In this document: positions 30,670-61,940 of the stretch, in pieces
Layout: the number at the start of each line of letters is the position of its first letter
Position numbering within the stretch: the first letter of the stretch is position 1
The notes under the pieces: generated by a model
Database searches by the model: none
What the model saw: the letters and a program-made list of their open reading frames with translations, nothing else
Told to the model about the DNA's origin: nothing
DNA from: Sphingomonas sp. AR_OL41
GTDB lineage: Bacteria > Pseudomonadota > Alphaproteobacteria > Sphingomonadales > Sphingomonadaceae
Assembly: GCF_029911635.1 (NCBI RefSeq)
Contig: NZ_JARYTI010000017.1
Coordinates: forward strand, 1-64,000
Direction of reading: 5' to 3'
Length of the DNA stretch: 64,000 nt
Translations under genes and position numbers: made by a program

Positions 30670-30903
30670 ATGAGCGTCGAGCGACATGTGAAATTGTTCA
30701 AGAACGGCCGCAGTCAGGCGGTGCGGATCCCGCGTGAATTTGAATTGCCGGGGGAGGACGCGATCATGCGCAAGGAGAACGGGAAGATCGTGATCGAAGC
30801 GGCGCCACCACGATCGCTGCTGGCGCTTCTCGCGACGCTCGCGCCGCTCGACGAGGATTTCCCCGACATCGAGGACCCCGCGCCCGAACCGGTCGAGCTA
30901 TGA
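30670..30903 (+). CDS. vapB: VapB-type antitoxin (AbrB/SpoVT fold)
   Basis: This 77-residue protein has an N-terminal swapped-hairpin DNA-binding domain, MSVERHVKLFKNGRSQAVRI followed by PREFELPG, and a C-terminal acidic tail (DEDFPDIEDPAPEPVEL). The tail would wrap around and block the PIN toxin. ATG at 30670 sits ten bases behind AGGAG. The gene overlaps the toxin start by 4 nt (ATGA). This is the standard type II arrangement, with autoregulation likely through the upstream palindrome. Confidence 0.88.
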   Translation: MSVERHVKLFKNGRSQAVRIPREFELPGEDAIMRKENGKIVIEAAPPRSLLALLATLAPLDEDFPDIEDPAPEPVEL

Positions 30904-31301
30904 GCGGCTATCTGCTGGATACGAACATCATCTCCGATCTCGTCCGCAATCCCGCCGGGCGGGTGGCGCGCAAGATTGCCGAAGTGGGCGAGGATGCGGT
31001 CGCGACAAGTGTCATCGTGGCCGCGGAACTTCGCTTCGGCGCCGCCAAGAAGGGGTCGTCGGCGCTGTCCGCCCGGATCGACGCAATCCTCGGTGCGCTT
31101 CCGGTCCTGCCGCTCGAACCCCCGGCCGATGCCGCATATGGCGATTTGCGCGCGAAGCTCGAACAAAGCGGAACACCGATTGGCGCCAACGACATGCTGA
31201 TCGCCGCGCATAGCCTTGGTCTCGGGCGGACGCTGGTTACCGCGAACGTCGCCGAGTTCGCGCGTGTCGCGGACCTCGTCGTCGTTAACTGGCTCGAGTA
31301 G
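30900..31301 (+). CDS. vapC: VapC-type toxin, PIN-domain ribonuclease
   Basis: This 133-residue PIN domain has the acidic active-site residues in place: Asp of YLLDTNIISDL, Glu of SVIVAAELRFG, Asp of IGANDMLIAAH, and the later TANVAEFARV. VapC toxins cut tRNA or rRNA when freed from VapB. The TA pair probably stabilises this accessory stretch. The length and motifs are complete, so it is expected to be functional. Confidence 0.9.
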   Translation: MSGYLLDTNIISDLVRNPAGRVARKIAEVGEDAVATSVIVAAELRFGAAKKGSSALSARIDAILGALPVLPLEPPADAAYGDLRAKLEQSGTPIGANDMLIAAHSLGLGRTLVTANVAEFARVADLVVVNWLE

Positions 31302-35673: not shown

Positions 35674-36675
35674 ATGGGGCAATTCGGGCAGGCGCGGCTG
35701 CGGGGTCTTTCGGATACGCCGGAGGCGGGGATCAAGGCGTGGCACGCGCAGGTGACCGAGGGGACCCGCCGCGACGGGCCATTGGCGCGGTTGCGTTATC
35801 TCGCGCGCGCCAACTATGCCTATAACTATATCTTCTGGTTGCGCACGCGATCGAACGACCCGGCCTGGGTCGGCAAGGGCGCGCGGATCGAGCAGCGGCT
35901 GAAAATGCCCTTTGCGCGCCGCGGGCAAACCGAACGCGCGGCCGCGTTCGACGCGAACGATTTTCATTTCGAGTCGCAGGCAATCCCCGCTGCCGCGCTG
36001 CGCGCCTTTGCCGAGGAGCTCGACAACCAGCCAAGCTATCACGACCCCTATGCCAGCGACTTTCGCCATGAAGGAAGCCCGCGCCACGGTGCGCACCCGT
36101 TCCTCTATATGGACCCGCAGCGCATCGTCGACAGCGCGGCGTTCTGGGACATCTGCACCGCGCCGGCGCTGGCCGAATTCTGTCGTGAGGTGCTGGGACC
36201 ATCGGCGGCGATCAGCTGGGCGTGGGCGTGGATCAGCCAGCCCGGTGCCGCGCCCTATCAGAACCAGAACTGGCACCGCGACTGTGCCGAACCGTTCAAT
36301 TTCATCCGCGTGTTCATCCCGCTCGGCGCGATCGAGAGCCGCGACGACGGCCCGACCGAGGTGATACCCGGCACCTCCGGCCTGCGCGACTTCTACGAAG
36401 TGCGGCGGTTCGGCGACGATGAGCTGGCCGGACTCAAGCTCGAAAAGGGCGCCGGCGTGGTGCTGTCGGAGCCGGGCGACGTCTATTTCGTCAACACCTT
36501 CGCACTGCATCGCGGGACGCCGCCGCAGCGCCCGCGTGCGATGCTCACGCTGCTCGTGTCGCTGTCGCCGTCGCATCGCACGCCGTCGATCCGGCGCGTG
36601 AAGCGCGCATCGCTTTCGGCGCCGGTGCGCAGCGCGATCGCCGCCAACAAGCGCTTCTTCCGTTACCTCGTCTGA
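35674..36675 (+). CDS. PhyH-like Fe(II)/2-oxoglutarate dioxygenase
   Basis: This 333-residue protein shows the facial triad of phytanoyl-CoA dioxygenase-like enzymes: His and Asp in QNWHRDCAEPFNFIRVFIPL, the distal His in VNTFALHRGTPPQRPRAMLT, and the 2-oxoglutarate-binding Arg in the same block. The substrate is unknown. Family members hydroxylate acyl chains, amino acids or secondary metabolites. ATG at 35674 follows GGAGGGA. The FkbH-like gene begins 14 nt after its stop, so they form a two-gene unit. Confidence 0.8.
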   Translation: MGQFGQARLRGLSDTPEAGIKAWHAQVTEGTRRDGPLARLRYLARANYAYNYIFWLRTRSNDPAWVGKGARIEQRLKMPFARRGQTERAAAFDANDFHFESQAIPAAALRAFAEELDNQPSYHDPYASDFRHEGSPRHGAHPFLYMDPQRIVDSAAFWDICTAPALAEFCREVLGPSAAISWAWAWISQPGAAPYQNQNWHRDCAEPFNFIRVFIPLGAIESRDDGPTEVIPGTSGLRDFYEVRRFGDDELAGLKLEKGAGVVLSEPGDVYFVNTFALHRGTPPQRPRAMLTLLVSLSPSHRTPSIRRVKRASLSAPVRSAIAANKRFFRYLV

Positions 36676-36689
36676 CCGGAGACACCGAC

Positions 36690-38225
36690 ATGTCGATCAA
36701 GCTGGTCATCTGGGATCTCGACGACACCTTGTGGGCCGGCACGCTCGCCGATGATGCGCGGGTGACGCTGTTCGCGCGCCGTGCGGACATGATCCGCACG
36801 CTCAACGCGCGCGGCGTGCTGTCGTCGATCTGCTCGAAGAACGATTTTCAGACGGCGCAGGCGCGGCTCGTCGCGCTCGGCCTGTGGGACGAGTTCGTCT
36901 TCCCGCATATCGCCTTCACCCCCAAGGGGCCGGCGGTCGCCGCGATCATCGACGACATGCAGCTGCGCGCGCAGAATGTGCTGTTCGTCGACGATAATCC
37001 GGCCAATCTGCGCGAGGTGGCGCACGCCGTGCCGCAGATCCAGCTGCTCGACGCGAGCGCGGCGGATTGCGACGACGATCTACAGGCGCTGGTCGACGCG
37101 CATGCCGGGGCCGAGCGCAACCGCATCGCCGAATATCGCATGCTCGAGCGGAAGAAAGGCGACCGCACCACCGCCGGGGTTTCCAACGAGGATTTCCTGC
37201 GCGGCTGCGGGATCAAGGCGTGCGCGCCCTATCTGATGGACAATCTCGATTTCGCCGGGCGGATCGCGGAGCTGATCAACCGATCGAACCAGCTCAACTA
37301 CACCGCCTCGCGCGTGACCGAGGAAGCGCTGGAACGCGACATCATCGACGTCGTCGCGTTCGACAGCTGGTCGATCTTCGCGTGGGACAGTTACGGCCAT
37401 TACGGGCTGGTCGGCTTCGTCATGGTCGACCGCAAGACACCCGCGCTGGTCCACTTCGCCTTTTCGTGCCGCGTGATGCATATGGGGATGGAGGCCTATG
37501 CGCTCGACCGGGTGCGCGAGAAATTCCCGGCGATCGATACAAGCGCGCTCGACGGGCGCTTCAGCCGGTCGGCGCCCGACTGGATCGCGGACCAGTCGTT
37601 CCACGATCCGGCGGTCCGCACTTCGCTGATTGCGGGCCATGTGCCCGACGTCGCGCAGGCCGCGGCGCTGCGCATCATGTTCGACTGCCAGTCAGGCGGC
37701 ATCGCGCATTTCAGTGCGCACCGCGCAGTGGTGGAATTCGACAACAACCCGCGGCTGTTCGCGCTCAAATCCCTGCGTGACGGCAGCGTCGCCGCGCAGC
37801 AGTTTCCGCCTTACGTCGTCTATGGCGCGGGGATCGACTATTCCGATCCGCGCTGGGGCGACGATGCGCAGTTTCTCGAGGTCGGGCTATATGGCTGGTG
37901 CGTCACCGCGATGTGCCGGACGCTGGGCGAGCGCGGTGTCACCGCGCTGATCGTGCTGCCGCCCGACAATGCCGCGCCCGAACAATATCGCGCGCATATG
38001 AACCACACGCGCGAGCGCACGCAGCGCTTCAACGCGATCTGGCGCGACGCTGCCGGGGCGTGGCCGCATGTGTCGCTGCTCGACCTGTCGGACCTTGCCC
38101 ATGCCGGCGAGATGATCGACGTGAGCCATTATACCGCCGGGCTGCTGCAGAAGATCGCGTGGCGGGTCGATGGGTGGTATGAGGGCGAGACTTGTGCGCA
38201 TGAACCGATGCGGCGCGTGGGGTGA
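36690..38225 (+). CDS. FkbH-like HAD-family protein with C-terminal SGNH-like region
   Basis: This 511-residue protein has an N-terminal HAD-IIIC phosphatase domain with the motif DLDDTLW (motif I) and VLFVDDNPANLREV, as in FkbH, which loads glyceryl groups onto acyl carrier proteins. GRIAELINRSNQLNYTASRV is the conserved FkbH acyltransferase-like block. The last third (FLEVGLYGWCVTAMCRTLGE to DLSDLAHAGEMIDVSHYTAG) has an SGNH-hydrolase-like ending with a DxxH. No polyketide synthase or carrier protein is nearby, so the role is open. A sugar- or lipid-decorating pathway with the adjacent dioxygenase is one possibility. Confidence 0.8.
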   Translation: MSIKLVIWDLDDTLWAGTLADDARVTLFARRADMIRTLNARGVLSSICSKNDFQTAQARLVALGLWDEFVFPHIAFTPKGPAVAAIIDDMQLRAQNVLFVDDNPANLREVAHAVPQIQLLDASAADCDDDLQALVDAHAGAERNRIAEYRMLERKKGDRTTAGVSNEDFLRGCGIKACAPYLMDNLDFAGRIAELINRSNQLNYTASRVTEEALERDIIDVVAFDSWSIFAWDSYGHYGLVGFVMVDRKTPALVHFAFSCRVMHMGMEAYALDRVREKFPAIDTSALDGRFSRSAPDWIADQSFHDPAVRTSLIAGHVPDVAQAAALRIMFDCQSGGIAHFSAHRAVVEFDNNPRLFALKSLRDGSVAAQQFPPYVVYGAGIDYSDPRWGDDAQFLEVGLYGWCVTAMCRTLGERGVTALIVLPPDNAAPEQYRAHMNHTRERTQRFNAIWRDAAGAWPHVSLLDLSDLAHAGEMIDVSHYTAGLLQKIAWRVDGWYEGETCAHEPMRRVG

Positions 38226-58740: not shown

Positions 58741-59127
58741 ATGGCTTTTTGGACGTATATTTTGCGCTGTTCAGACGGCCGATATTACACGGGCCACACC
58801 GACAATCTCGAACATCGCGTTGGTGCGCATCAGACGGGTGGCTATTGTGACTACACCTCTCGGCGCCTGCCAGTGACGCTTGTCTGGTCGCAGGACTTTC
58901 CCTCGCGGATCGAGGCGCTCGAGGCGGAGCGGATTGTTGGTGGGTGGTCACGCGCCAAGAAGGAAGCGCTGATCGCGGGTGATTGGGCGGCGGTTTCGCG
59001 GTTCGCCAAACCTCCTGCCGAGCGTGCTGTGGAGAAAGGTTTCTCGACTTCGCTCGAAACGAACGGTGAGAGTGGCCAGGTCTCGCCTCAGCAACATGCG
59101 AAGCGGCTGCAAGGGCGTAGCGAATGA
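58741..59127 (+). CDS. GIY-YIG nuclease superfamily protein
   Basis: This 128-residue protein has a GIY-YIG domain (WTYILRCSDGRYYTGHTDNL, EHRVGAHQTGGYCDYTSRRL, VWSQDFPSRIEALEAERIVG) of the UPF0213 type, with the expected Tyr, Arg and Glu residues. After about residue 98 the C-terminal tail (VEKGFSTSLETNGESGQVSP) is encoded by a copy of the 26-bp repeat. The stop overlaps the dnaG start (ATGA), so it is coupled to the primase gene. Confidence 0.85.
   Translation: MAFWTYILRCSDGRYYTGHTDNLEHRVGAHQTGGYCDYTSRRLPVTLVWSQDFPSRIEALEAERIVGGWSRAKKEALIAGDWAAVSRFAKPPAERAVEKGFSTSLETNGESGQVSPQQHAKRLQGRSE
59041..59066. repeat. 26-bp repeat copy inside the GIY-YIG gene
   Basis: TTCTCGACTTCGCTCGAAAC... (59041-59066) is translated as FSTSLETNG within the C-terminal tail of the GIY-YIG protein. 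It is inverted relative to the copy at 58643-58668, so the pair encloses 424 bp. Confidence 0.85.
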
Positions 59128-61939
59128 CCCTCACCCCGCAATTCCTCGACGAGCTCCGCTCGCGCACCCTGCTGTCGACGCTGATCGGCCGCACCACCAA
59201 GCTGCAAAAGGCCGGGCGGGAATGGCGCGCCTGTTGTCCTTTCCACAACGAGAAGAGCCCGAGCTTCTACGTCAACGACGACAAGGCCTTCTACCATTGC
59301 CTGGCCGGCGAAACGATGGTGATCACGCGCGAGGGCACGCGGCGGATCGACAGCCTAGACGGCACATGCACGACGGTCCTGTCGCGCAACGGACAGTGGA
59401 TCGACTCGTCCTTCCGCTGTTACGGCACGCAGCGGCTGTGGAAGATCGACCTGACGCGAAACGGGCTGAAGAAATCGGTCTGGGCCACTGACGGCCATCG
59501 CTGGTTCGTCAACGGCCGCGCGTCCGAGGTGGTGACGGCCGACCTCAAGAAAAATCACGCGCTGGAAAGTGCCCTGCCGCCGCGCCGGCACAACTGGCAG
59601 CTCGACCCGGAAGGGGTGCGCCATGGCATCATTTTCGGCGACGGCACGATGTATCAGGGCGTCTATGGCACCATCAATCTGCACGGCGCCAAGGATGCGG
59701 AACTGGCTTCCTGGTTTCCGGACCAGCAGCACCATCGACACGAGCGCGCGCCGGGCAAACACTATCTCCGCGTCTATGGCGGTCGCGCATTCGAGGCGAT
59801 GAAGCAGCTTCCCGACATGTCGATGCCGGATGCTTATCTGCTGGGCTTCATCGCCGGATATCTCGCCGCCGACGGGCATGTCGCCAAGGACGGCACCGTC
59901 ATGCTCAACTCCGCCGATCCGGCGGCGCTCGACGCGGTGCGTGACATCGCGTTGAGAGTGGGAATTGCGACTTATGGCCGGACCACGCTGATGCGAAAGG
60001 GATTCGGTACGGCGCCATCCGCACTGCACCGGATACATTTCGTCTCGTCCACGCTGGACCCGGCGCTGTTTTTGCTCGCCGAAGCACGATCGCGCTTCAG
60101 CGGACACAGCAAAGCGTTCGATCGGCTGCGCTGGGTAGTTTCCTCAGTCGAACAATCCGACCGCGTCGAACCTGTCTTCTGCGCTGAAGTCCCGGGCGAG
60201 CATGCCTTTGCCCTGGAAGACAATATCCTGACCGGCAACTGCTTCGGCTGCGGCGCGCACGGCGACGCGATCCGCTGGATGACCGAGCAGCGCGGGCTGC
60301 CATTCATCGATGCGGTCAAGGAGCTGGTCCAGGCGGCGGGCATGGAGATGCCGGCGCTCGATGCGCGCGCGGCGGAGAAAGCGGAACGCGCCAAGGGGCT
60401 GCACGAGGTGTGCGCCGATGCCGCGACGTGGTTCACCGAGCAGCTGAACGGCATCGCTGGCGCCGAGGCGTGCGCGGTACTGGAGAAGCGCGGGATCAGG
60501 GCGGAGACGGCAAAGACCTTCTCGCTCGGCTTCGCGCCGGATTCGCGCGGCAAGCTCAGGACCGCGCTGAAGGAATATGGCGACGCGATGCTGGTCGAGT
60601 CCGGCATGCTGATCAAGGTCGACGACAAGGAACCCTATGACCGCTTCCGCGGCCGGCTGATGATCCCGATCCGCGATCCGCGCGGCCGCGTGATCGCGTT
60701 CGGCGGTCGGGTGATCGGCGATGGCGAGCCGAAATATCTCAACTCGCCCGAGACGCCGTTGTTCGACAAGGGGCGCAACCTCTACAATCTCGATCGCGCC
60801 GCACCGGCGAGCCGCAAGTCGGGACGGCTGCTCGTGGTCGAGGGCTATATGGACGTGATCGCGCTGGCGCAGGCCGGGTTCGGCGAGGCGGTCGCGCCGC
60901 TCGGCACCGCGCTGACCGAGGCGCAGCTCGAGCGGCTGTGGCGTCTGGTCGATGTGCCGATCCTGTGTTTCGACGGCGACAGCGCGGGGCAGAAGGCGGC
61001 GATCCGCGCCGCGCAGCGCGCGATGCCGATGCTCGCGCCGGGGCGCAGCCTGTCGTTCGTGACGCTGCCGGCGGGGCAGGACCCCGACGATCTGGTGCGC
61101 GCCAAGGGGCCCGGCGCGTTCGAGGCATTGCTCAAGGAGCCCGAGTCGCTGGTCGCGCGGCTATGGGCGCATGAGGTGGCCGCCGAACCGCTCGACACGC
61201 CGGAACAGAAGGCCGGATTGAAGCAGCGACTCGGCGAACTCGCCGCGTCGATCGCCGATGCCAATGTCCGCCAGGAATATCTCGCCGACTTCCGCCGTCG
61301 CTTCGACGACCTCTACGCCAAGAAGCGCACGCCGTATGTCGAACGCAAGCCGCAGCGCAACGCGCAGAAGAACGGCCGCTGGGCACCCCCCGTCCCGATC
61401 GGCGGCAATCACCCGGCCGCGCAGGGCATCCGTGCCGGCGGAATCGACCGCGTTCTCGCCAAGGCCGTGCTGGCCGGCCTGATCAACCATCCGACCGAAA
61501 TCGCGCGGCACATGGACGTGCTCGACCGGTTGAAACAGGCCGATGGCGCGCTGGGTCAGCTGTTCAAGGCGGTGGTCGATTTCGCGATCGAAGAACAGGC
61601 GCTTGATAGCGCGCGCCTCGTTACCATATTGGCCTCATCCGGATTCGATGATGTGACGGGCGATTTACTCCGTGCGGATCGGGCCACATTCGCGCCGAAA
61701 GGTGCGGATGAAGCCCGGGCGCGCGCCGATCTTGACGAGGCGATCCACATTCTGGTGTCGCGTCCCGAGATCGACGCCGAGCTGGCGGAAGCGACGGCCG
61801 CACTGATGAGAAATTACACGGATGAAGCGTTCGAGCGGCAGGTGTCGCTCGTAAAAGACAAACAGGCGCTGGACGCACGACTTGCAAATCTGGTTCAGTC
61901 GGATGAAGACGCGCGAGCATTAGGTACCGAGGGCAGTTG

Positions 61940-61940
<1 letters not shown>
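59124..61940 (+). CDS. dnaG: DNA primase DnaG containing an intein
   Basis: The 938-residue precursor would yield a 624-residue primase after removal of residues 59-372. The host parts are the CHC2 zinc domain ([12 protein letters not shown], then the third and fourth ligands in CFGCGAHGD after the intein), the primase core with TOPRIM residues ([40 protein letters not shown]), and a C-terminal helicase-binding region. It synthesises RNA primers for replication. Excision of the intein is needed to rejoin the zinc site. It overlaps the GIY-YIG gene and the rpoD start, the alphaproteobacterial form of the dnaG-rpoD operon. Confidence 0.96.
59298..60239 (+). mobile_element. DnaG intein with LAGLIDADG endonuclease, mixed class 1/class 3 motifs
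   Basis: This 314-residue insert runs from Cys1 ([13 protein letters not shown], block A) to Asn314 (NILTGN), followed by Cys+1 of the host. Block B is [13 protein letters not shown] with Thr64, His67 and Trp69 (B:12). Two endonuclease motifs are [10 protein letters not shown] (Asp115) and IAGYLAADG (Asp192). Block F is [14 protein letters not shown] with Cys295 (F:4). Block G has Thr312 (G:5), Gly313 instead of His, and Asn314. The Trp-Cys-Thr triplet defines class 3 inteins, while Cys1 is a class 1 trait. The insertion lies directly before the third zinc ligand of DnaG. Confidence 0.92.

Follow-up and report, generated by a model that had tools for sequence, protein, structure and literature searches.

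A permuted FkbH-type protein with a predicted C-terminal SGNH-fold domain, encoded beside a PhyH-like dioxygenase in Sphingomonas

Background

D-1,3-bisphosphoglycerate is the substrate of FkbH proteins, which load it, remove phosphate and leave the glyceryl group bound as a thioester to a carrier protein, as set out in the available sections of two reports (PMC8949500, PMC7489565). The described examples from polyketide and nonribosomal peptide synthase (PKS/NRPS) systems are Mad7/Mad14 (PMC7489565) and the FkbH domains of vioprolide and cystomanamide (PMC8949500), again as those sections present them. Our literature search returned no work joining FkbH with SGNH, with Sphingomonas, or with glyceryl and polysaccharide.

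Caulobacter makes ceramide phosphoglycerate by a proposed and partly unresolved route that uses nucleotidyl-type enzymes, according to the accessible text of PMC11324152. The ceramide locus of Sphingomonas and Caulobacter contains epi, acpR and spt (PMC9386255, PMC11324152). In the accessible parts of the first of these papers, the order epi-acpR-spt is given for two Sphingomonas genomes, and the S. wittichii map assigns epi to Swit_3897, acpR to Swit_3899 and spt to Swit_3900 (PMC9386255). The accessible text of both papers names no FkbH gene (PMC9386255, PMC11324152). Native gellan, a Sphingomonas product, carries L-glycerate esters on glucose according to an excerpt of PMC9104527, and the excerpts of the gellan literature at hand do not name the gene for the glycerate-adding step.

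Here we describe a protein, P0002, that shares the HAD-IIIC domain and the core of the PKS/NRPS FkbH proteins over residues 3-287 but is encoded without a synthase or carrier protein nearby. Its C-terminal end is predicted to adopt an SGNH fold.

Results

The window, which is the whole 64,000-nt stretch of DNA analysed here, comes from the genome of Sphingomonas sp. AR_OL41 (5.88 Mb in 188 contigs). On its + strand, a gene for a PhyH-type Fe(II)/2-oxoglutarate dioxygenase-like protein of 333 aa (P0001, 35674..36675) is followed, after a gap of 14 nt (36676..36689, + strand) that contains a GGAG ribosome-site-like stretch read by eye, by a gene for an FkbH-type protein of 511 aa (P0002, 36690..38225, + strand). 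The initial annotation had described a PhyH-like dioxygenase 14 nt ahead of an FkbH/SGNH-like fusion, and both open reading frames lie as it described them. The neighbours of the pair are on the opposite strand and appear to encode a methyl-accepting chemotaxis protein upstream and an unknown and a release-factor-like protein downstream; genes were called with a simple script, and neighbour names without profile support were assigned by eye. No promoter-like site was found around the pair (0.3 in shuffles), and the seven terminator-like matches (1.9 in shuffles) are all inside the two genes. Elsewhere in the window, a MazE-type antitoxin and a PIN-domain toxin form a gene pair at 30670-31301, and a DnaG primase gene at 59124-61940 apparently contains an intein: the match to the CHC2 zinc ribbon falls in two separate stretches, and between this ribbon and the DNAG_N domain is a LAGLIDADG_3 domain.

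The absence of a synthase or carrier protein nearby, also part of the initial annotation, was borne out. An acyl carrier protein (ACP) profile built from sequences of this analysis had no match in the 64-kb window (E 1e-4), and none of the window's gene calls is of polyketide-synthase size, the largest being 1111 aa (neighbour names by eye). A partner carrier may be encoded elsewhere in the genome, for instance by acpR on contig C133. The isolation of the pair in the window, together with a broken PhyH relative in one other genome (G175), could suggest the relic of a lost biosynthetic cluster. This we consider highly improbable: both genes are intact and retain their conserved residues, pN is about half of pS (pS 0.52-0.63), and intact adjacent pairs occur in two further genomes, G106 and G119, where the full-length proteins are 58-62% (P0002) and 55-62% (P0001) identical to those of the window. 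In the neighbourhoods read by eye, moreover, relatives are not located in PKS/NRPS clusters, so that the initial annotation's own counter-scenario, a pair confined to large biosynthetic clusters and surviving here as a relic, was not what we found.

Residues 3-287 of P0002 match the FkbH model TIGR01686 with an E value of 1.8e-38 and 132.5 bits, below the cut-off of 146.65; two relatives from ceramide loci also score below it, and three of four distant relatives above. The HAD-IIIC model TIGR01681 is matched above its cut-off (44.2 bits, cut-off 35.75). The HAD-IIIC domain (residues 1-141; 36690..37112, + strand) has DLDDT at residue 9, CSKN with Cys48, K79 and DD101-102, and in a model of the whole protein the structural matches of the N-terminal ~140 residues are HAD phosphatases, with 3slr the best (Z 18.5). 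NRSNQLN and SCRVMHMG are located in the remaining FkbH core (residues 142-287; 37113..37550, + strand). All 13 aligned sequences share the HAD residues (catalytic Asp pair, Lys, second Asp pair) without variation, and likewise CSKN within the HAD domain and NRxNQLN and SCR beyond it.

We compared 32 such proteins (27 loci and five long forms) with 21 ordinary FkbH loci, namely the window genome's own (L093, contig C181) and 20 chosen from ~35 low-identity rows of the genus scan. The ordinary FkbH of the window genome has an FkbH_N domain at residues 63-251 and its HAD motif at ~265; the HAD motif is at about residues 265-311 in 15 of the 21, and the other six had no match to the pattern used. 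SCRxMH(M/L)G was identified in all 32 proteins of the P0002 type and in none of the 21 ordinary ones (20 readable; the SCR hit in L188 is false). Conversely, the pattern of the ordinary tail, which we take to be GNAT-like, was found in 16 of the 21 ordinary proteins and in 0 of the 32. Cys48 of CSKN is present in 32 of 32 against 14 of 21. P0002 is called permuted because ordinary FkbH carries FkbH_N ahead of the HAD domain and P0002 an SGNH domain after the core. On the basis of motifs and models, it is a permuted FkbH with the predicted order HAD, FkbH core and SGNH, and it differs from ordinary Sphingomonas FkbH, with its extra domain before the HAD, in lacking the tail, in having a C-terminal SGNH domain instead of an N-terminal FkbH_N, and in having SCRxMHMG instead of an SCRVLG-type motif. 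Both parts of P0002 also match BF1531 of Bacteroides fragilis (3slr), in which the order is reversed, SGNH-like and then HAD. FkbH proteins can thus carry a second domain, as FkbH_N and 3slr illustrate; the C-terminal place is the unusual part.

The C-terminal end was modelled alone because the fold searches with the whole protein were filled by HAD chains. The model of residues 297-511, made from 20 sequences (pLDDT 81, pTM 0.78), has its best PDB matches among SGNH/GDSL enzymes, with EstL5 first (Z 13.1, rmsd 3.9, 170 aligned), followed by OatA (Z 12.9), PatB (Z 11.5) and the N-terminal part of 3slr (Z 11.5, rmsd 6.5). The initial annotation had placed an SGNH-like end in roughly the last 150 residues, and about 185 residues are modelled as SGNH. 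The domain (residues 325-508; 37662..38213, + strand) contains DCQSGG with Cys333, Asn448, and DVSHY with His480. Lipase_GDSL_2 matches below its cut-off (E 0.011 with the whole protein, 0.0058 with the end), sub-threshold GDSL matches were detected in 6 of the 20 members of the end alignment, and searching solved structures with the sequence of the end gave no significant hit. The SGNH end is real as a predicted fold and is hinted at by sequence. With small profiles, built from 2 and 5 sequences, hhalign gave no significant match of the end to WcbI or GSCFA (probability 1% and 0.2%); the likeness to WcbI is a 16-column NCQ/DCQ stretch only.

SGNH enzymes have a Ser nucleophile in block I and Asp-x-x-His in block V. 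The Ser/Asp/His expected from the initial annotation was only partly recovered: His480 is invariant over 15 diverse aligned rows, as are Cys333 and Asn448, but the invariant block-I residue is Cys333 of DCQSG, with a variable Ser335 two residues on, and Asp477 also varies and is not retained in distant relatives. The SGNH domains of the peptidoglycan O-acetyltransferases OatA (6vjp) and PatB (7tjb) have a fold like that of the P0002 end and are a plausible model for the transfer of an acyl group to a sugar hydroxyl, although the P0002 end is 10-15% identical to them and has Cys as its invariant block-I residue. Many structural matches of the end model are esterases or lipases, which is compatible with a reading in which the SGNH domain is an esterase, the HAD domain a plain phosphatase or other acyl-phosphate activator, and P0002 no glyceryl transferase. 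The FkbH score below the curated cut-off and the missing ordinary tail and SCRVLG-type motif point in the same direction. We regard this reading as unlikely, since the FkbH core motifs NRxNQLN and SCR beyond the HAD domain, and CSKN within it, are invariant across the aligned sequences.

Of the 295 genomes in the genus scan, 49 gave a match of any kind to P0002. Full-length relatives, counted from the genus-scan table as matches covering 390 residues or more with an identity of 50% or higher, are present in 27 genomes, four of which (G106, G119, G196 and G244) contain a second copy. Matches reaching the C-terminus were found in two other genomes (G322 and G547) of the 397 in the family scan, only in the window genome in the class scan (337 genomes) and the phylum scan (150 genomes), and in one of 55 matching plasmid records (Rhizobium rosettiformans, 40%). 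Five of the 27 genomes encode a long form with ~160-190 extra N-terminal residues (L086-L090). One G119 copy (L078) has its extra region at the C-terminus; with this copy included, the extra regions span ~150-190 residues. A HemA-like gene, identified by eye as a relative of serine palmitoyltransferase (SPT), is located beside the long form in L088 and L090; it was judged incidental because the other three long forms have different surroundings.

Most relatives are encoded in the ceramide locus. In 23 of the 27 genomes, the permuted FkbH is on the same strand as, and at most 3.4 kb downstream of, a predicted ketosphinganine/ceramide-reductase gene, annotated as an NAD-dependent epimerase of 301 aa, with obgE and proB near where in view. 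Behind the permuted FkbH, acpR-spt is also in view in 18 of the 23, and in L016 the SPT scores 822.9 bits with its curated model, above the cut-off of 670. The gene order matches the published epi-acpR-spt, and by position and family the epimerase of the relatives would be the published epi gene. The exceptions are G198, G186, G213 and the window genome, whose own ceramide locus has the order obgE-proB-epimerase-(reversed unknown gene)-acpR-spt and lacks FkbH (acpR on contig C133) and whose permuted FkbH is elsewhere. In a tree of the 32 proteins, the 19 copies from ceramide loci cluster together (100/99) in a group that also takes in the L003 and L005 copies, and the three dioxygenase-paired copies branch outside it; the branch of the window protein is long and its place unsure. 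The link to the ceramide locus reflects a single ancestral placement that has persisted despite local rearrangement, and not many independent events. The interval may also be a permissive site, since the copies form a single tree group and other genes have entered it as well.

The isolated two-gene module of the initial annotation is confirmed in the window and does not extend to the genus, where only 3 of 295 genomes have the two genes side by side and FkbH occurs in 27, in 23 of them in the ceramide locus. P0001 matches PhyH (PF05721) with an E value of 0.0018 and 19 bits, below the gathering score of 22. PhyH proteins bind Fe through the motif HxD...H, and the corresponding residues of P0001, His201 and Asp203 (HRD, residues 201-203) and the distal His279, are invariant in 9 of 9 aligned sequences including the window's. 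Relatives with at least 55% identity to P0001 were identified in 10 of the 295 genus genomes, the broken G175 gene being one of them, all within the 27 with a permuted FkbH (hypergeometric P 7e-12, a value much inflated by shared ancestry because most of the 10 genomes are in one clade); the other 17 of the 27 have no PhyH relative at this identity. The gap in the adjacent pair is 14 nt in the window and, by the gene calls, 7 nt in G106 and ~13 nt in G119. In the neighbourhood that holds the G119 pair, seven genomes have the dioxygenase next to a parC-like gene (identified by eye) and no FkbH; here the paired FkbH was probably lost and the ceramide-locus copy retained. In the remaining family-scan genomes, identity to P0001 did not exceed 37%, and plasmids gave no relative.

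Permuted and ordinary FkbH differ in their association with carrier proteins. An ACP is encoded within 3 kb in 20 of 21 ordinary Sphingomonas loci and within 300 nt in 16, the sole locus without one within 3 kb being that of the window genome itself. At permuted loci, an ACP was detected within 3 kb in 9 of 27 (acpR each time), within 6 kb in 14 of 27, and at none of the five long-form loci. The absence of a dedicated carrier is common to the permuted relatives outside the ceramide locus. A missing neighbouring ACP by itself proves little here, because the window genome's ordinary FkbH also lacks one nearby. Nine of the 27 loci have acpR directly after FkbH (80-84 nt to the matched part), in line with another reading in which FkbH loads AcpR and glyceryl-AcpR enters serine palmitoyltransferase or a related Claisen step to yield an unusual sphingoid base. 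We judge this very unlikely: 13 of 27 loci, the window included, have no ACP within 6 kb, and the ceramide locus of the window genome retains acpR and spt in the absence of FkbH.

An MBOAT-like gene is encoded within three genes of 9 of the 21 ordinary FkbH genes, L093 included (8 of 20 in the other genomes, L184-L203). By eye, the surroundings of the ordinary FkbH of L093 are those of an exopolysaccharide cluster. They include genes resembling Wza, Wzc, Wzx and polymerase genes, a hexapeptide acetyltransferase gene, and MBOAT-like and SGNH-like genes, a candidate set for exopolysaccharide glycerylation. By likeness to the SGNH gene of L093, such a gene beside an ordinary FkbH was found at that locus alone (1 of 21).

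Discussion

We tentatively propose that P0002 is a self-contained glyceryl transferase, acting most likely on ceramide or a glycosphingolipid, and that P0001 hydroxylates the product or the acceptor. From motifs, models and gene neighbourhoods we infer all functional steps, which include the glyceryl nature of the unit, its transfer with no ACP of its own, the sphingolipid acceptor and the role of the dioxygenase. The HAD/FkbH core would take D-1,3-bisphosphoglycerate and remove its phosphate. Glyceryl would be held as a thioester, either by an enzyme cysteine, for which Cys48 and Cys333 are candidates, or by a carrier borrowed from another pathway, for instance AcpR. The fused SGNH domain would then transfer it, as an ester, to a hydroxyl group on a lipid of the cell envelope or on its sugar head group. 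The acceptor would most likely be a ceramide or glycosphingolipid, and P0001 may hydroxylate the glyceryl product or its acceptor. That P0002 both makes and delivers glyceryl is the simplest reading, because the core motifs are kept and the ordinary tail is lost, no dedicated ACP travels along, and a domain with an O-acetyltransferase fold is present in cis. The more specific form of the idea, a permuted FkbH that needs no dedicated carrier and converts 1,3-bisphosphoglycerate straight to a sphingolipid-bound glyceryl ester, sometimes followed by the dioxygenase, is rather unlikely in our estimate. The route proposed for P0002 would differ from that of ceramide phosphoglycerate in Caulobacter. 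Several observations weigh against the proposal: P0002 scores below the FkbH cut-off, the ceramide locus of the window genome has no FkbH, the ceramide interval may be a permissive site, several distant relatives adjoin glycan genes, and 17 of the 27 genomes have no PhyH relative at 55% identity or more.

Since the relatives are mostly encoded inside a sphingolipid-making locus, the enzyme may decorate membrane sphingolipids or sugars. The compact pathway for decorating a lipid or glycan that the initial annotation suggested fits many of the relatives' neighbourhoods as read by eye, but FkbH is mostly in the ceramide locus and the pair is rarely adjacent. The acceptor is less sure: close relatives point to a sphingolipid, and several distant ones to glycans. 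The same chemistry may act on an extracellular or surface polysaccharide, the position in the ceramide locus being incidental, which we think possible, if doubtful. The L-glycerate esters of native gellan offer an analogy within Sphingomonas to the glyceryl ester proposed for P0002. On a Komagataeibacter plasmid (L163, 10630-13713), a DUF1796-TPR-FkbH fusion is followed by GT61 and two glycosyltransferase genes; the Rhizobium rosettiformans relative adjoins an FkbM methyltransferase and is ~7 kb from bcs genes; and the Loktanella relative adjoins a GSCFA protein. By eye, the surroundings of the G576 relative include glycosyltransferase-like genes, those of one G997 copy include UDP-sugar enzymes, and the ordinary FkbH of the window genome is in its exopolysaccharide cluster. 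A C. jejuni flagellar-glycan locus also holds an fkbH-domain gene, as the available portion of PMC7099621 describes. However, 23 of the 27 genomes with the closest relatives encode them in the ceramide locus, and G547 and the other G997 copy have no clear glycan neighbourhood by eye. Moreover, in the available text of the two sources, FkbH uses D-1,3-bisphosphoglycerate (PMC8949500) and gellan carries L-glycerate (PMC9104527). Gellan as the direct acceptor was rejected, and retained only within this polysaccharide reading, on this difference in stereochemistry and because no exopolysaccharide cluster adjoins the permuted form in the Sphingomonas neighbourhoods read by eye.

Conclusions

Ordinary FkbH with a stand-alone ACP, and often an MBOAT-like gene, are candidates for the addition of glycerate to exopolysaccharides such as gellan. 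If the glyceryl-transferase reading of P0002 is true, FkbH chemistry would move from polyketide assembly lines into the cell envelope. The permuted FkbH would then provide a genetic basis for glycerate esters of lipids or glycans and, should it act on sphingolipids with no dedicated carrier, would represent a new way to decorate a membrane lipid with a glycolytic intermediate.
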